Source: Dehalococcoidia bacterium
GTDB taxonomy: Bacteria; Chloroflexota; Dehalococcoidia; Lucifugimonadales; Lucifugimonadaceae
NCBI GenBank assembly: GCA_029940375.1
Contig: JAPYUX010000002.1
Span: 1-64,000, forward strand
Length of the DNA stretch: 64,000 nt
Reading direction: 5' to 3'
The notes under the pieces are model-generated. The model searched no databases. It was not told where the DNA came from and was given only the letters and a program-made list of their open reading frames with translations. The translations under genes were made by a program, and so were the position numbers. The number at the start of each line of letters is the position of its first letter. Position 1 is the first letter of the stretch. Shown one piece after another: positions 35,428-42,712 of this stretch.

Positions 35428-36165
35428 ATGAGCAAAAAAAATAAATTATCAGAATTAGAAAATATAATAAAAAAATTAAGAAGCGATACAGGTTGTCCTT
35501 GGGATAGAGAATTAAATTTTGAATCTCTGAAAGCTTTGACATTAGAAGAAGCTTATGAACTCATAGATGCGTTGGAAAAAAATGATAACAATTTAGTTTT
35601 AGATGAATTGTCAGATTTATTAGTTCATATTTTGTTCTATTCTGAAATTGCTAATTCTTCAAATCTATTTAACTTTAACGACATATTAGATCATGCAAGA
35701 AAAAAATTGATAAAAAGACATCCGCATGTTTTTGATAGAGAGAATTTTGGTAATTTAAAAACTTCAGAAGAAGTCGAAAAAAATTGGATAAAACTCAAAG
35801 GTGAAAATACAAATACAAAAAAAAGTTTTTTAGATGAGTTTAATTTTTTTTCTCATTCAAGTGTATTGCTGAAGAGGTTAATTAAGAAACTATTATCATT
35901 AAATATTCGAATAAATAAAAACGAAGTACCAAAGACGATTTTAGGTTTTGAAGATATTTCAAATAAATTATTCAAACTATATTTCTATTTAATTCAAAAC
36001 AATATCGACCCAGAGATTGAATTGAGAAAGAAAATAAATTCTATCAAACAAAAAATCATCAACTATGAAAATAATAGTAATAAAAAATTTAAAGATTTAG
36101 AAGATGAAATAATTTATAATTTATTATTTGTTGAAAGAGATGAAAATGAGGAAGGACCTAAATAA
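35428..36165 (+). CDS. mazG: MazG-family nucleoside triphosphate pyrophosphohydrolase
   Basis: A 245-residue MazG-type protein. The N-terminal domain has TGCPWDRELNFESLKALTLE, EEAYELIDAL and LDELSDLLVHILFYSEIA, giving the EExxE...ExxD metal site. The following HPHVFDRENFGNLKTSEEVE matches MazG; the C-terminal half is divergent. It removes non-canonical NTPs or controls (p)ppGpp-related nucleotide levels. Its stop overlaps the next start by one base (TAATG). Confidence 0.92.
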   Translation: MSKKNKLSELENIIKKLRSDTGCPWDRELNFESLKALTLEEAYELIDALEKNDNNLVLDELSDLLVHILFYSEIANSSNLFNFNDILDHARKKLIKRHPHVFDRENFGNLKTSEEVEKNWIKLKGENTNTKKSFLDEFNFFSHSSVLLKRLIKKLLSLNIRINKNEVPKTILGFEDISNKLFKLYFYLIQNNIDPEIELRKKINSIKQKIINYENNSNKKFKDLEDEIIYNLLFVERDENEEGPK

Positions 36166-37226
36166 TGAAAGCACTCCTATATCATGGGAATAAAGACATA
36201 AGATTAGAGGAAATAGAAAAGCCCAAACCAAAATCCAATGAAGTCTTGGTAAAAGTAAAATATACATCATTATGCGCGACAGACATTGAAGAATGGCAAT
36301 ATGGACCCCTATGGATCCAAACTGCTACCTTAAATCCACTCAGTGGTAAGAAAGCTCCATTAGTTATGGGACACGAAATATCAGGAGTTGTAGACTCAGT
36401 GGGAGACTTTAACCACCAGAATTTAATTGGAACAAGAGTTGTAATAAATAACGTACTTACTTGTGGTAATTGTTACTGGTGTCAATCAGGTCATCATGCT
36501 GTATGTCCTTCTATGGCTGTAGCGGGGCTATCTGCTGATGGCGGTCTTCAAGAGTATATGGTTTGGCCCATAAAAAATATTATTCCAGTGCCTGATAGTA
36601 TATCTGATGAAGAAATTTCTCTACTAGAACCGGCTACAATAGCAGTGCATGCCGTTCGAAAATCCGGAATTAAACCAGGAGATATAGCCGTTGTGGTTGG
36701 GTGTGGCACAGTGGGGCTTTTAACACTTCAAGCTTTATTGGCTGCTGGAGCTACAGTGATAGGTGTTGATATTAAGGAAAAAAAATTGAATTTAGCAAAA
36801 AAACTTGGAGCTGAAAATATTTTTAAGGTTGAAAAAAATATTTCTTACTTATATAAACAAATCCTAACCATTACTAATAATATTGGCCCTGATTATGTGT
36901 TCGAAACAGCTGGTGCCAAAGAATCTCCTGAAATATCAGTTAATATAGCTCGAAGGGGAGGAACTATAATTTTAGTTGGGATATATTCTCAAAAAACGGT
37001 ATTTGATTTTAATCAAATAGTCAGTCTAGAAAAAAAAGTTATTGGTTCTGTTGCAGCTGAAAATAACGATATGAAACACGCAGTTAATTTGGTTTCAAAA
37101 GGATTAATTAAACTTAAGCCATTGATAACAGAAATCATAACATTGTCCAATGTAATTGAAGATGGATTTAAAAAAATGTTGGATGGTGATAAAGAAATCT
37201 TTAGAATAATAGTGAAACCAGACTAA
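36165..37226 (+). CDS. Zinc-dependent medium-chain dehydrogenase
   Basis: A 353-residue zinc alcohol dehydrogenase. It has the catalytic-zinc segment SLCATDIEEW (about 35-44), GHEISGVV (about 71), the structural-zinc cysteines CGNCYWCQSGHHAVCP, and the NAD loop VVGCGTVGLLTLQAL. The overall pattern resembles butanediol, sorbitol and threonine dehydrogenases. It may be a sugar or polyol dehydrogenase given the DUF4432, SDR and SMP-30 genes that follow. It is coupled to mazG by a one-base overlap, though no functional link is evident. Confidence 0.88.
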   Translation: MKALLYHGNKDIRLEEIEKPKPKSNEVLVKVKYTSLCATDIEEWQYGPLWIQTATLNPLSGKKAPLVMGHEISGVVDSVGDFNHQNLIGTRVVINNVLTCGNCYWCQSGHHAVCPSMAVAGLSADGGLQEYMVWPIKNIIPVPDSISDEEISLLEPATIAVHAVRKSGIKPGDIAVVVGCGTVGLLTLQALLAAGATVIGVDIKEKKLNLAKKLGAENIFKVEKNISYLYKQILTITNNIGPDYVFETAGAKESPEISVNIARRGGTIILVGIYSQKTVFDFNQIVSLEKKVIGSVAAENNDMKHAVNLVSKGLIKLKPLITEIITLSNVIEDGFKKMLDGDKEIFRIIVKPD

Positions 37227-37284
37227 TTATGCTGAACACTTATAATATTCTGTTTAAATTATAGTAAATAAGGGAAAATGATTA

Positions 37285-38361
37285 ATGAGCACAAACTATC
37301 AAGACGAAAGAGCTTTTGGAGCTAGAATTTCTGACTCTTGGAAATATCGAGGGTTGAAAACTGTAATTCTGGAAAATAAATTTATACGAATTCAAATTAT
37401 TGCAGATAAAGGCGCTGATATTTCAAGTTTTATTTATAAGCCTACTGATACAGAAATTATGTTCAAAACCCCCTGGGGTATAAGGAATCCATCAATTAAT
37501 GTTCCTTCTTCTGGGGATGGTGCTTCAGTTTGGTTAGATTATTATGAAGGAGGATGGCAAACAGTGATTCCTCATGGTGGATATCCAAGTACATATTATG
37601 GAGCAGATTTTGGGATTCATGGTGATGTAAATAATATTCCTTGGGATACTAAAATTATTGAAGATACGCCAGAACTTTGTAAAGTAGAATTTACAGGTAG
37701 AAGTATACGAAGTCCATTTGAAATTAAAAGATTAATATCATTGAAATCTGATGAAAGTTTTATAGAAATCCATCAAGAAGTAACAAATTTTGGTGAAGAA
37801 GATTTAAATATAGTTTGGTTAGAACATATTGCTGTCGGAGGGACTTTTTTATCTGAAGAATGTACTTTAACGATTCCTGATTGTACTATACTTTCTCACC
37901 CAGAAGATGTCGATAAATCCTCAAAATTAAAACCTAGTTTTTCTGGACCTTGGCCATTTGTAGAAATGAAAGATGGAAGTTTATCCGATTTTAGATTAAT
38001 ACCTGGGAAATCCGATAGATCTTTAGATATGGCGTATTTTACCGATTTATCTGATGGCTGGTATGTTGTAACAAATAATAAAATAAATTTATCATGGGGC
38101 GTAGAATTTCCAAAAGAATTATTCAAATACATTTGGTATTGGAGAAATTATGGTGGTGGTTATGGTTACCCATGGTATGGAAGAAGCTACAATGCAGGAC
38201 TTGAGCCCTGCACAAGTTGGGGCAACGGCGGAGTTGAACATGCAAAAAATAATGGTTCTGCACTTCCTGTAAAAGCTGGGCAAACAATTTCAGCAAATAT
38301 GAAAGCTGGAATTATATTAGAATATTCGATTGATGAAAGAAAAGGTCCTTTTGACAAATAA
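37285..38361 (+). CDS. DUF4432/aldose-1-epimerase-like protein
   Basis: A 358-residue galactose-mutarotase-fold protein. It begins with SWKYRGLKTVILENKFIRIQ and IIADKGADISSFIYKPTD, typical of the DUF4432 family, with the usual VWLEHIAVGG and WRNYGGGYGYPWYGR segments. These proteins are thought to bind or isomerise sugars or sugar-related compounds. It lies 58 bases after a zinc dehydrogenase and is convergent with the SDR gene. It would fit a mutarotase-type step in the sugar group, but no experiment-based function can be inferred. Confidence 0.85.
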   Translation: MSTNYQDERAFGARISDSWKYRGLKTVILENKFIRIQIIADKGADISSFIYKPTDTEIMFKTPWGIRNPSINVPSSGDGASVWLDYYEGGWQTVIPHGGYPSTYYGADFGIHGDVNNIPWDTKIIEDTPELCKVEFTGRSIRSPFEIKRLISLKSDESFIEIHQEVTNFGEEDLNIVWLEHIAVGGTFLSEECTLTIPDCTILSHPEDVDKSSKLKPSFSGPWPFVEMKDGSLSDFRLIPGKSDRSLDMAYFTDLSDGWYVVTNNKINLSWGVEFPKELFKYIWYWRNYGGGYGYPWYGRSYNAGLEPCTSWGNGGVEHAKNNGSALPVKAGQTISANMKAGIILEYSIDERKGPFDK

Positions 38362-38385
38362 AGTATTCAATTACTTCTGAGAATA

Positions 38386-39183
38386 TTATTCTCCCTGCAG
38401 TTCTGTATCCCACCCTCCTTTAGCCATAATTCCTCCGTCTACAATAATATATTCTCCAGATATAAATGATGCTTTTTCACTACATAAAAATGAAGCCACT
38501 TGTCCTATTTCTTTGGGTTCTCCGACTCTTCCCATAGGAATATCTTTTCCAAATAATTTTAAATTTTCATTAATGTTTCCAGAAATTGAGTTTGTTACCA
38601 TAGGAGTGTTAAATGTACCAGGACATATCGCATTTATTCTTATGTTTTCCTTAATATAGTCCAGTGACATTTGCCTTGTTAAAGACAAAACAGCACCTTT
38701 ACTTGCAGCGTAGGGAGGAACAAGCTTTTGTGATTGTAATCCCTGCACACTCGCTATATTCACAATTGCACCCTGTCCATTTTTCCTCATAAAAGGAATT
38801 GAGTATTTAGACATCAAAAAATAGCTTTTTAAGTTTACATTTATAATAGCATCCCATACTTCCTCTGAAGTTTCTTCTATATTTTTATAAGATGTAGATG
38901 GCTGTATACCCACGTTATTTACCAATATACATATGTTTCCTAGCCTGCTAACACACTCCTCGATTACTTTTTTAGGTTCTTCAGAATTTTCAAAATTTGC
39001 TTTAATATAAATTGCTTTTTTACCTGACTTCTCTATTTCAGTTACTGCTTTAATTCCATGTTCTTCAGAAATGTCAGCTATACATATTTGAGCCCCCTCT
39101 GATGAAAGAACATCCACAATCCCCTTTCCAATACCTTGTGCTCCGCCTGTTACTAAAGCTACTTTGTTATCGTGATCACCCAT
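38386..39183 (-). CDS. Short-chain dehydrogenase/reductase
   Basis: A 265-residue classical SDR. It has the cofactor loop TGGAQGIGKG, the structural NNVGIQ (NNAG position), a catalytic Ser in NIASVQGLQSQK, YAASK (Tyr and Lys), and NAICPGTFNTPM. It is probably NAD(P)-dependent sugar or polyol dehydrogenase, for example a fucose- or glucose-1-dehydrogenase-like enzyme, judged from neighbours only. The ATG at 39183 is divergent from the SMP-30 lactonase gene. Confidence 0.9.
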   Translation of the reverse strand: MGDHDNKVALVTGGAQGIGKGIVDVLSSEGAQICIADISEEHGIKAVTEIEKSGKKAIYIKANFENSEEPKKVIEECVSRLGNICILVNNVGIQPSTSYKNIEETSEEVWDAIINVNLKSYFLMSKYSIPFMRKNGQGAIVNIASVQGLQSQKLVPPYAASKGAVLSLTRQMSLDYIKENIRINAICPGTFNTPMVTNSISGNINENLKLFGKDIPMGRVGEPKEIGQVASFLCSEKASFISGEYIIVDGGIMAKGGWDTELQGE

Positions 39184-39274
39184 ATATTCCCTTTCTACTA
39201 ATATTCTTCAAAAAGTATACATGATATGAATATTTACTGATATTATGAAAATCAAATTGTAAACAAGGAGACTA

Positions 39275-40174
39275 ATGAAATATCACATTGAAAAAGTTGC
39301 TTCTCCTGAAGCTATAGTTGGCGAAGGTCCAGTATGGAGCCCTGAAGAAGAAAAATTATATTGGACAGATATCCAAGGAGGTAAATTATTTAGATACAAC
39401 CCGGCAGATAACTCAAATGAAATAATACATAATGGAGTTGAAGTAGGAGGTTTCAGATTTAACGATGGAGGAGGATTAGTTTTGGGAACTTGGAAAGGAA
39501 TAATGCTTTGGAATTCTGATGATGAATTTAAATGGATTAAAGTCGGAAATTTTGAAGGAAAAGATACTGCTATTAGAATTAATGACGTTATCTCTGGACC
39601 TGATGGTAGTTTTTATTGTGGAACTGATACCTCAAAATGGGAAAATGATATTCTCTTTAGAGTAAATATCGATGGAACAATCGACATTATTGATGAAGGA
39701 ATAACTTTATGTAATGGTATGGGGTTTTCGCCTGATGAAACAAAGTTCTATAATACAGATACTTTGGCAAAAACCATTTATCAATGGGATTATAATGCTA
39801 TCAATAGATCTTTATCAAATAAAAAAACTTTAGTTAAAATTGAAGATGATTTTGAAGGCATATCAGATGGAATGACTGTCGATTCAGAAGGATTTATTTG
39901 GTCGGCAATTTGGTTTGGTTCCAAAGTTAAGAGATTTGATCCTGATGGAAAACTAGAAAGGGAAATACATTTTCCTGCTACGCAAACATCTTGTCCGATG
40001 TTTGGCGGAAAAGATTTAAATGAATTATATGTCACTACAGCGAGTGCAGGAACGGGAGATCCTCCAATAGGATTTGAGCCACGAGGTTATGACTTTGAAG
40101 CATATAGAGGAGGAGATCTTTTTAAAGTAAAATTAGACATCCAAGGAAAACCCGAATATAAAACCAAATTTTAA
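39275..40174 (+). CDS. SMP-30/gluconolactonase family protein
   Basis: A 299-residue six-bladed propeller lactonase. It has GEGPVWSPEEEKLYWTDIQG (metal Glu about 18), RINDVISGPDGSFYCGT (Asn, Asp), LCNGMGFSPDETKFYNTD (Asn) and ISDGMTVDSEGFIWSAIW (Asp about 203) - all metal ligands of the regucalcin/gluconolactonase family. It hydrolyses sugar-1,4- or 1,5-lactones to aldonates. AAGGAG lies before the ATG. With the SDR and mutarotase-like genes it gives the oxidation-hydrolysis half of a sugar-acid pathway. Confidence 0.93.
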   Translation: MKYHIEKVASPEAIVGEGPVWSPEEEKLYWTDIQGGKLFRYNPADNSNEIIHNGVEVGGFRFNDGGGLVLGTWKGIMLWNSDDEFKWIKVGNFEGKDTAIRINDVISGPDGSFYCGTDTSKWENDILFRVNIDGTIDIIDEGITLCNGMGFSPDETKFYNTDTLAKTIYQWDYNAINRSLSNKKTLVKIEDDFEGISDGMTVDSEGFIWSAIWFGSKVKRFDPDGKLEREIHFPATQTSCPMFGGKDLNELYVTTASAGTGDPPIGFEPRGYDFEAYRGGDLFKVKLDIQGKPEYKTKF

Positions 40175-40235: not shown

Positions 40236-41282
40236 CTATCTATCTACCAAAATCTGTGAATTAGATTTTTTAATAGTTTCTCCTATTTTTTTTGCAAAAA
40301 ATGTTTCGATAGAGTTGATTGCATCAATAAGCTTTTTTGATTTACTTTTCTCAACTGATAATAATAATCCCCCTGATGTTTGTGAATCAAATAAAATCAT
40401 TTTTTCATTATTTGAAATTGTTTCGTCCCAAGTAATATTTTTGTCCAGGATCCTTTTATTATTTTTCGTTCCCCTTGACCAAAATTCTTTTTTTGATAAT
40501 TCCAAACTTCCTTCAAGAATAGGAATTTCATTGAAATTGAGTTTAGCTGAAATCTTACTTCCTTCTAAAATATTTGTTAAGTGTCCTATAAGCCCAAAGC
40601 CACTTACATCTGTGCCCGCTTTAACTTTCAAAGAAATAGCTTTTTCACAAGCAACATTATTAAGTTGCTTCATGTAATAAATTGCCTTATCCATTATTTG
40701 TTTTTCTAATAAGGTAGATTTTGCCGCTGTAGTTATTATTCCATTTCCAATTGGTTTAGTTATAATTAAGTCTTGATTTGGCTTTGCATTTGTTACCTTC
40801 ATTACATTTTTTGGATTAATGTTACCTATAACTGCAAGACCATATTTGGGCTCAGAATCATTAATTGTATGACCTCCAGCAATAATAACATTTGCTTTTT
40901 GAGCAATGTTATTCCCTCCAGCAAGGATTCTTTCAATATATTTGCTAGGTAAATTATCTCCAAAGCATGATATATTCAATGCGAGAAAAGGATTTCCCCC
41001 CATAGCATATACATCAGAAATTGCATTTGCAGCGGCTATTTGACCAAAAACATAAGGATCATCCACTACTGGAGAAAAAAAATCAGTAGTAAAAACAATA
41101 GCATTGTTTTCTGAAACTTTATAGATAGCTGCATCATCTTTCGTAGTATGATCTACCAATAAATTTTCAGAAATTCTATTTATATTGAGCTGGCTCAGAA
41201 CCCTGTCCAGTTCCTCTAATGAGGCTTTACCAGCTCAACCTCCGCTTTTGGAAAGGCTGGTCAACCTAAATTCTTTGTTCAT
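40236..41282 (-). CDS. selD: Selenophosphate synthetase, selenocysteine-containing (in-frame TGA)
   Basis: SelD of 348 residues when read from the ATG at 41280-41282 through the TGA at 41235-41237. An ORF finder starts at 41159 and loses the catalytic N-terminus. The upstream frame gives RLTSLSKSGGU-AGKASLEEL, where U16 is at the catalytic Cys/Sec position and Lys19 matches the essential Lys20 of E. coli SelD. Sec at this position with GGU context is known from other bacteria. TGA is a normal stop elsewhere here (for example crotonase, lysA). Later motifs, GGHTINDSEPKYG and GTDVSGFGLIGH, are intact. It makes selenophosphate from selenide and ATP. Divergent from lysA. Confidence 0.95.
41185..41238 (-). 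promoter_or_regulatory. Bacterial SECIS-type hairpin in selD
   Basis: Perfect 9-base inverted repeat on the minus strand: the 5' arm (41238-41230, ttgagctgg) contains the UGA and the 3' arm (41193-41185) is ccagctcaa. Inside, GAAC and GTTC can pair around a G-rich loop (tggacagg). Position just downstream of UGA and within the coding sequence fits a bacterial SECIS bound by SelB. Confidence 0.85.
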
Positions 41283-41380
41283 AAAATTAAATTCTTTTAA
41301 ATTTTAAATTAAAGTATAGAATTTAGAATAGAATAATAAAGTAAATAGTTATATAAAATTACCAATATAAGTAGGTATAT

Positions 41381-42712
41381 ATGAATTTTAGTAATCAATT
41401 CATAGGAAAAGAATTATTCCCAAACAAAACTGATGTAAATTCTGATAATAATTTATCTATAAATGGATTTGATTTAACAAAATTGGCTGAGAAATATCAA
41501 ACACCATTGTATGTATATGATGAAGATACAATAGTTTCAACAATTAAAGATTTTCAAAATTCTTTCAAATCAGAATTAGAAACCTCAATAATATCTTATT
41601 CAACAAAAGCCTTTTCGAATCCTTATCTACTAAAAGTATTAAATGAAAATGATATGTATATTGATGTAGTTACAGGAGGAGAATTGGCAATAGCTAAATT
41701 CGTTGAATTTCCTTCAAGCAGAATCAATTTTCATGGAAACAATAAATCAATTGATGAATTAAAAGAGGCATTAGATTATGGCATCAAGCATATAACTATT
41801 GATTCATTCAATGAAATTCAAAATTTAAAAAAAATAACAGAAGAATTGAATGTGATTCAGGATGTGATGATAAGAGTCTCTCCATCTGTCGACCCAAAAA
41901 CTCATTTGTTAACAACAACAGGTATTTTGGATTCAAAGTTTGGTTTCTCTATAGAAACAGGAGATGCTGAAAAAGCAATATATGAATTGACTAAAATAAA
42001 GAATCTTAATTTAGTTGGTTTACATTTTCATTTAGGCTCTCCTATTTTTGAAGTACAGCCATATACAGAAGCAATTGAATATGTTTATAGTTTTGCTTCT
42101 GATATGAAAAATACATATAATTTCCAAATGAAAAAATTTAGCCCTGGAGGTGGATTTGCTATTGGATATACCACTGAAAAAAAACCTTTAGTGATACGTG
42201 AATATGCAAAAGCAATTTGTGATTCTATAAAAAAGTCGGCAAAAAAATATAAATTCCCTATACCAATAGTTATACTCGAACCAGGACGTGCACTTATTGG
42301 ACGATCTGGTGTTAGCATTTATAAAATAGGTTCTATTAAATCTATTCCTGCCGTCAGAAATTATATTTCAATTGATGGTGGAATGGGTGATAATATTAGA
42401 CATGCATTGTATGGATCAGAATACTCTGTTTTTTCAGTGTCTAAAATAAACAGTAAAAAGAAAATGACAAAGGCTACTATTGCAGGAAAATTTTGCGAAT
42501 CAGGAGATATACTGGCAAAAGATGTTTATATTCCAGATCCTGAAATAAATGATTTATTGGTATTGCCATCATCAGGGGCATATAATCTTGCCATGTCAAG
42601 CAATTATAATATGCAAGTAAGACCAGCTGTAATAATAATTACAAAAGGAGAAACTAAAATTATAAAGAGACGAGAAACATATAAAGATTTATTATCAACT
42701 TCACTTTTATGA
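41381..42712 (+). CDS. lysA: Diaminopimelate decarboxylase
   Basis: A 443-residue LysA. It has the PLP lysine region ISYSTKAFSNPYLLKVL (K in the STK segment), GLHFHLGSP, SPGGGFAIGYT, EPGRALIGRSG and the C-terminal CESGDILAKD and GAYNLAMSSNYN. It makes lysine from meso-diaminopimelate, the last step. Coupled by a four-base overlap to holB, so lysine synthesis is joined to a replication/lipid gene run. The 98 bases upstream are shared with selD on the other strand. Confidence 0.97.
   Translation: MNFSNQFIGKELFPNKTDVNSDNNLSINGFDLTKLAEKYQTPLYVYDEDTIVSTIKDFQNSFKSELETSIISYSTKAFSNPYLLKVLNENDMYIDVVTGGELAIAKFVEFPSSRINFHGNNKSIDELKEALDYGIKHITIDSFNEIQNLKKITEELNVIQDVMIRVSPSVDPKTHLLTTTGILDSKFGFSIETGDAEKAIYELTKIKNLNLVGLHFHLGSPIFEVQPYTEAIEYVYSFASDMKNTYNFQMKKFSPGGGFAIGYTTEKKPLVIREYAKAICDSIKKSAKKYKFPIPIVILEPGRALIGRSGVSIYKIGSIKSIPAVRNYISIDGGMGDNIRHALYGSEYSVFSVSKINSKKKMTKATIAGKFCESGDILAKDVYIPDPEINDLLVLPSSGAYNLAMSSNYNMQVRPAVIIITKGETKIIKRRETYKDLLSTSLL

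Follow-up and report, generated by a model that had tools for sequence, protein, structure and literature searches.

In the present study, we analysed a window of 64,000 nucleotides (the whole stretch of DNA examined, positions 1 to 64,000 of contig JAPYUX010000002.1) from a Dehalococcoidia bacterium. The gene of interest is selD, for selenophosphate synthetase, which is listed with its surroundings in Table 1. Its frame contains a single in-frame stop, a TGA, and with this codon read as selenocysteine (Sec, U) the translation begins MNKEFRLTSLSKSGGUAGKAS. The first-pass annotation had described a frame open save for one TGA and giving a 348-residue SelD, and translation of 40236-41282 (-) proved this right in every detail. 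The gene had also been described as misread by ordinary ORF calling, and the TTG start at 41159 was confirmed: calling with table 11 returned only 40236-41159, a product of 307 aa from which 41 residues are lost. The NCBI pipeline is able to call SelD as a selenoprotein, so that misreading by standard annotation holds for plain ORF calling only. The gene has no close same-strand neighbour in the window and looks monocistronic. Between selD and the mazG-like gene, the window carries four sugar-metabolism-like genes (36165-40174), named by eye as a dehydrogenase, an epimerase-like gene, an SDR and an SMP-30-like gene; three further genomes of the genus that were read have selD and mazG side by side, without this insert.

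Table 1. Features of the selD locus in the window
Feature	Position	Strand	Remarks and evidence
selD CDS	40236..41282	-	348 aa, Sec = residue 16; conserved in 30/30 order loci
In-frame TGA, read as selenocysteine U16	41235..41237	-	opposite E. coli SelD Cys17
AAA codon, Lys19	41226..41228	-	opposite E. coli SelD Lys20; invariant in alignment
SECIS hairpin core CUGGACAGGGUUCUGAGCCAG	41190..41210	-	codon-frozen in 7 genus genomes; fold; order-wide pair counts
TTG, start of truncated 307-aa gene in ordinary ORF calling	41157..41159	-	ORF calling
Divergent intergenic stretch, selD/lysA	41283..41380	.	98 bp
lysA (diaminopimelate decarboxylase-like, named by eye)	41381..42712	+	conserved flank for empty-site test
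mazG-like gene (named by eye)	35428..36165	+	directly downstream of selD elsewhere in genus; adjoins lysA in selD-less genomes

The full translation matched the equivalog model TIGR00476 (selD) over residues 6-314 with 342 bits (cut-off 125, E 3e-102), and Pfam AIRS and AIRS_C also matched the read-through product. The Cys of the GAGCGCK motif in E. coli SelD and its lysine are the essential residues Cys17 and Lys20. In the alignment with the solved E. coli protein (3u0o), which runs from residue 4, U16 stands opposite this Cys and K19 opposite the Lys; the placement of Sec at the catalytic position with a lysine three residues on, as put forward earlier, therefore agrees with the alignment. 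Across 13 aligned SelD sequences, L7, T8, G15, A17, K19, L25 and L29 are invariant. The protein belongs to SelD by its full-length equivalog match above the cut-off and by its Cys/Sec and essential Lys residues, and it is a predicted selenoprotein by its in-frame UGA, conserved coding on both sides and a SECIS hairpin just downstream.

Conservation of the TGA codon

The nearest named relative, Chloroflexi MAG SP316 (PBER01000002.1, G132), is 95% identical and comes from an independent assembly, and the next, Chloroflexi TMED70, is 60% identical; both keep the TGA. When 250 genomes of the same order were searched with SelD, 230 of them contained relatives (E <= 0.001), some matches being weak and presumably paralogues. 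Each of the full-length order matches listed holds a single stop codon, which is a TGA, and U stands at the position of residue 16 in all 30 order loci that were fetched. A relative with a normal stop and without conserved upstream coding, which the first-pass annotation had named as evidence to the contrary, was not found among them. Outside the order, the best named relatives are mostly Clostridia and Acidobacteria, mainly with Sec forms and some Cys forms.

The hairpin downstream of the TGA

The hairpin of 21 nt starts 25 nt after the UGA and folds by CUGG/CCAG and CAG/CUG pairs around the loop GGUU (41199-41202), which lies 32 nt from the UGA. In seven genomes of the genus, this stretch reads CTG GAC AGG GTT CTG nGC CAG (codon-alignment columns 25-31), and its invariant residues are codon-frozen in six of six cases vs 28 of 129 elsewhere in selD (Fisher p = 1.8e-4, for a stretch picked after looking at the sequences). 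The sole run of at least four identical codons in selD of these genomes sits in the same stretch. In addition, GC3 is 0.50 in codons 16-33 vs 0.21 for selD overall.

In the wider order, 71% of cells were paired in the given register vs 12-43% when it was slid. Double (compensatory) changes numbered 15 vs 5.7 in shuffles, and none of 500 shuffles was as high. A second register, which overlaps the first, does well too (82% paired), and RNAalifold on 25 order SelD sequences returned no single consensus fold, apparently since the hairpin is formed in one or the other of these registers depending on the subclade. Thus, the selD hairpin has support, but its register shifts across the order. Against shuffled versions, the SECIS fold of the single sequence stands out only modestly (z about -1 to -1.8; the 21-nt core gave -0.6).

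Sec-decoding machinery and a second selenoprotein

The genome comprises 1.47 Mb in 16 contigs and is 92.9% complete. It had been predicted that selA, selB and tRNA-Sec should occur elsewhere in the organism, and all three were found in the same genome. The tRNA-Sec gene (C8:377675-377760) scored 70.6 bits (gathering score 47) and has the anticodon UCA, and ARAGORN agreed on it (tRNA-SeC, anticodon tca). SelA (C8:296866-297945) was matched at E 1.5e-121 and SelB (C8:186465-188219) at 264.6 bits vs a cut-off of 242, the latter combining an EF-Tu GTPase domain with a SelB winged helix at its C terminus. These genes are scattered in the genome and form no single operon; with selA, selB, selC (tRNA-Sec) and selD together in one genome, the organism carries the Sec-decoding trait. 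No match to TIGR03167 (SelU/YbbB) was found in this 92.9% complete genome, which thus appears to fall outside the selenouridine trait. In the absence of SelU, selenophosphate appears to serve Sec and not selenouridine, a reading that the incompleteness of the genome keeps provisional.

A thioredoxin-like gene (L001:1166-1488) ends about 12 nt before tRNA-Sec (1501-1586) on the same strand, which suggests that a redox gene is co-transcribed with selC. At two contig ends of this genome (G000), C6:1-61925 and C14:254306-316230, there are two peroxiredoxin-family hits with identical scores, frame lengths and spacing; the two regions appear to be the same sequence and are probably redundant assembly ends.

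The first-pass annotation had also expected other selenoproteins, and this was borne out by FdhA, the formate dehydrogenase alpha subunit (C6:195248-197260; TIGR01591, 768.8 bits vs cut-off 666). Its one in-frame TGA falls in DNCSRTUHAPT, the catalytic Sec/Cys site of a molybdopterin formate dehydrogenase. Full-length FdhA relatives across the family have the same single TGA, and a few lower-scoring matches have none. A hairpin follows the UGA at 18 nt, with a 7-bp stem kept in nine of nine sequences and the loop GGGAU here and GGUCU in the relatives read. Since this hairpin hardly varies among the nine sequences, its covariation is uninformative. As tRNA-Sec, SelA, SelB and FdhA are all present in the genome, the main attempt to refute the selenoprotein reading left it standing.

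A scan for in-frame TGA covered, by a crude method, about 0.52 Mb (36% of the genome, window included), and only SelD and FdhA were judged to code as one protein on both sides. The other outputs resemble adjacent genes in the same frame or N-terminal noise, and the TAG and TAA controls were similarly noisy. In an earlier coding-score scan, the flank filters missed the known selD, and other criteria recovered selD and fdhA. No internal stops occur in the genome's members of the peroxiredoxin and CMD/AhpD families.

Co-occurrence and loss of the trait

Across the family, tRNA-Sec, SelA and Sec-FdhA are for the most part found in the same genomes as SelD. Two members of the window's genus, G129 and G135 (97% complete), are without full-length SelD and without strong tRNA-Sec, SelA or FdhA matches. 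Two genera with small genomes, g4 (10 genomes) and g5 (4 genomes), likewise gave no full-length SelD match and no strong match to SelA, tRNA-Sec or FdhA, apart from tRNA hits of 50 bits in g5, which are comparable to the secondary hits seen where the Sec trait is present. In the three Sec-positive genomes that were read, selD is flanked on one side by the divergent lysA and on the other by a convergent mazG-like gene, with a slight overlap. In G135 and G129, lysA directly adjoins mazG and selD is absent, and this direct neighbourhood indicates an empty selD site and not an assembly gap. Given vertical descent, the distribution would require at least two separate losses.

In a further genus, g6 (G090, G091, G092), strong SelD matches were found in three of three genomes, with SelA in one and FdhA in another. 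No tRNA-Sec above threshold was found in these three incomplete genomes, and the tRNA-Sec of this genus is possibly divergent.

Discussion

Taken together, selD in the window most probably (about 97%) encodes a functional selenophosphate synthetase that is itself a selenoprotein, in an uncultured marine Chloroflexota bacterium. Following established bacterial Sec decoding, SerRS would load serine onto tRNA-Sec, and SelA would turn the seryl stage into Sec-tRNA-Sec with the selenophosphate made by SelD. SelB would then deliver Sec-tRNA-Sec to the ribosome at the UGA, and would act there because it may also bind the hairpin about 30 nt downstream. Since Sec decoding needs selenophosphate, full-length SelD would depend on its own product. 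The sequences themselves show the genes and how they are conserved, the constraint on the hairpin and the co-occurrence of the Sec genes; we infer from them the actual insertion of Sec, the binding of SelB and the activity of the enzyme, which would make selenophosphate from selenide and ATP.

The plainest objection is that the TGA is a true stop and that the protein begins downstream, from TTG 41159, as a shortened SelD-like product that lacks the catalytic Cys/Sec loop. Ordinary ORF calling yields exactly this gene. However, 15 codons before the TGA and 25 after it encode conserved SelD residues, the hairpin is codon-frozen and the Sec machinery is present in the genome. Moreover, E. coli SelD without its active-site residue and Lys is inactive, and a product shortened in this way would be expected to be so too. 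We therefore regard termination at this codon as very improbable.

It may further be supposed that the UGA is read by other means than Sec, either by reassignment of TGA as Trp or Gly or by generic readthrough, and TGA reassignment does occur in some uncultured bacteria. In this genome, however, TGA serves as a normal stop (85 of the 450 ORFs with 150 aa or more end in it), and there is a dedicated tRNA-Sec. The only genes judged to span a TGA in the 0.52 Mb read, selD and fdhA, belong to known Sec families and have U at the catalytic site; we regard such other decoding as highly unlikely. A sequencing or assembly error for TGT or TGC in a normal Cys-SelD gene would fit the greater frequency of Cys-SelD in prokaryotes at large, in which 19% of detected SelD genes had Sec and the rest Cys (PMC4561486). 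The same TGA nevertheless recurs in independently assembled relatives of 95% and 57-60% identity and in 30 of 30 order loci, and it is followed by a hairpin under synonymous constraint, so that we give an error almost no weight.

For SelD as a Sec-containing enzyme, the distribution of the trait invites one speculation, which we hold to be rather unlikely as a whole. This streamlined marine lineage might retain the whole Sec machinery for the sake of just a few proteins, perhaps no more than SelD and one formate dehydrogenase, the UGA of selD might act as a selenophosphate feedback switch, and loss of FdhA might lead to block collapse of the trait. If true, such a collapse would match what is seen in G129 and G135 within the genus and in the two other small-genome genera of the family. 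The distribution allows testing whether FdhA loss drives the loss of Sec decoding.

Sec-SelD is one of the two most widespread selenoproteins in Global Ocean Sampling (GOS) data, with 357 sequences (PMC2398784), and stands fourth in the Sargasso Sea (PMC1088965); it has been proposed that the Sec trait is maintained by two families, FdhA and SelD (PMC1794560). Since Sec-type SelD is a long-known and widespread marine family, the SelD of the window is solid but ordinary in kind. Mildly new are the fixation of Sec-SelD throughout the order and, in reduced genomes, the loss of the whole trait as a block. A literature search of partial coverage turned up no publication about the Sec trait in this planktonic Chloroflexota group (SAR202); from MAG names and gene content, we infer that the present lineage is of the marine SAR202 type. 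Judged by its genes, a genus of uncultured marine Chloroflexota can be taken to encode selenocysteine (in SelD and FdhA at the least), and the same genus has relatives in which the whole trait is lost. For annotation, it matters that plain ORF calling cuts 41 residues off selD and breaks fdhA at the catalytic site.

Among known systems, the deep-sea Chloroflexi single cells (PMC5736913) provide another Sec-containing formate dehydrogenase in marine Chloroflexi, although they are sediment Dehalococcoidia and SelD is unmentioned in the text of that paper. The published bacterial SECIS model (bSECISearch; PMC13188914) has an apical loop of 3-9 nt with G in the first two positions, 16-37 nt from the UGA. 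The GGUU loop of selD at 32 nt and the GGGAU loop of FdhA at 18 nt fit it, whereas the selD register drifts between order subclades and gives no single consensus fold. E. coli SelD (PDB 3u0o) is of the same family and aligns at the active site from residue 4, but has a catalytic Cys where Sec stands here. CxxU motifs (CAGU and the like) occupy SelD residues 13-16 in 23 of 30 order SelDs (L097-L126), and the window's own genus has SGGU or CGGU there; CxxU accounts for about 5.6% of single-domain Sec-SelD in GOS and was reported as rare (PMC2398784). The Sec-type SelD/SPS2 proteins (TIGR00476; Clostridioides difficile, marine metagenomes) are also among the closest counterparts, those of Clostridia being 42-46% identical to the SelD of the window. 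They differ in nothing functional, the window motif being SGGU and that of most order relatives CAGU (CxxU), and they share the single-domain form, Sec at the Cys17 position and Lys three residues on.
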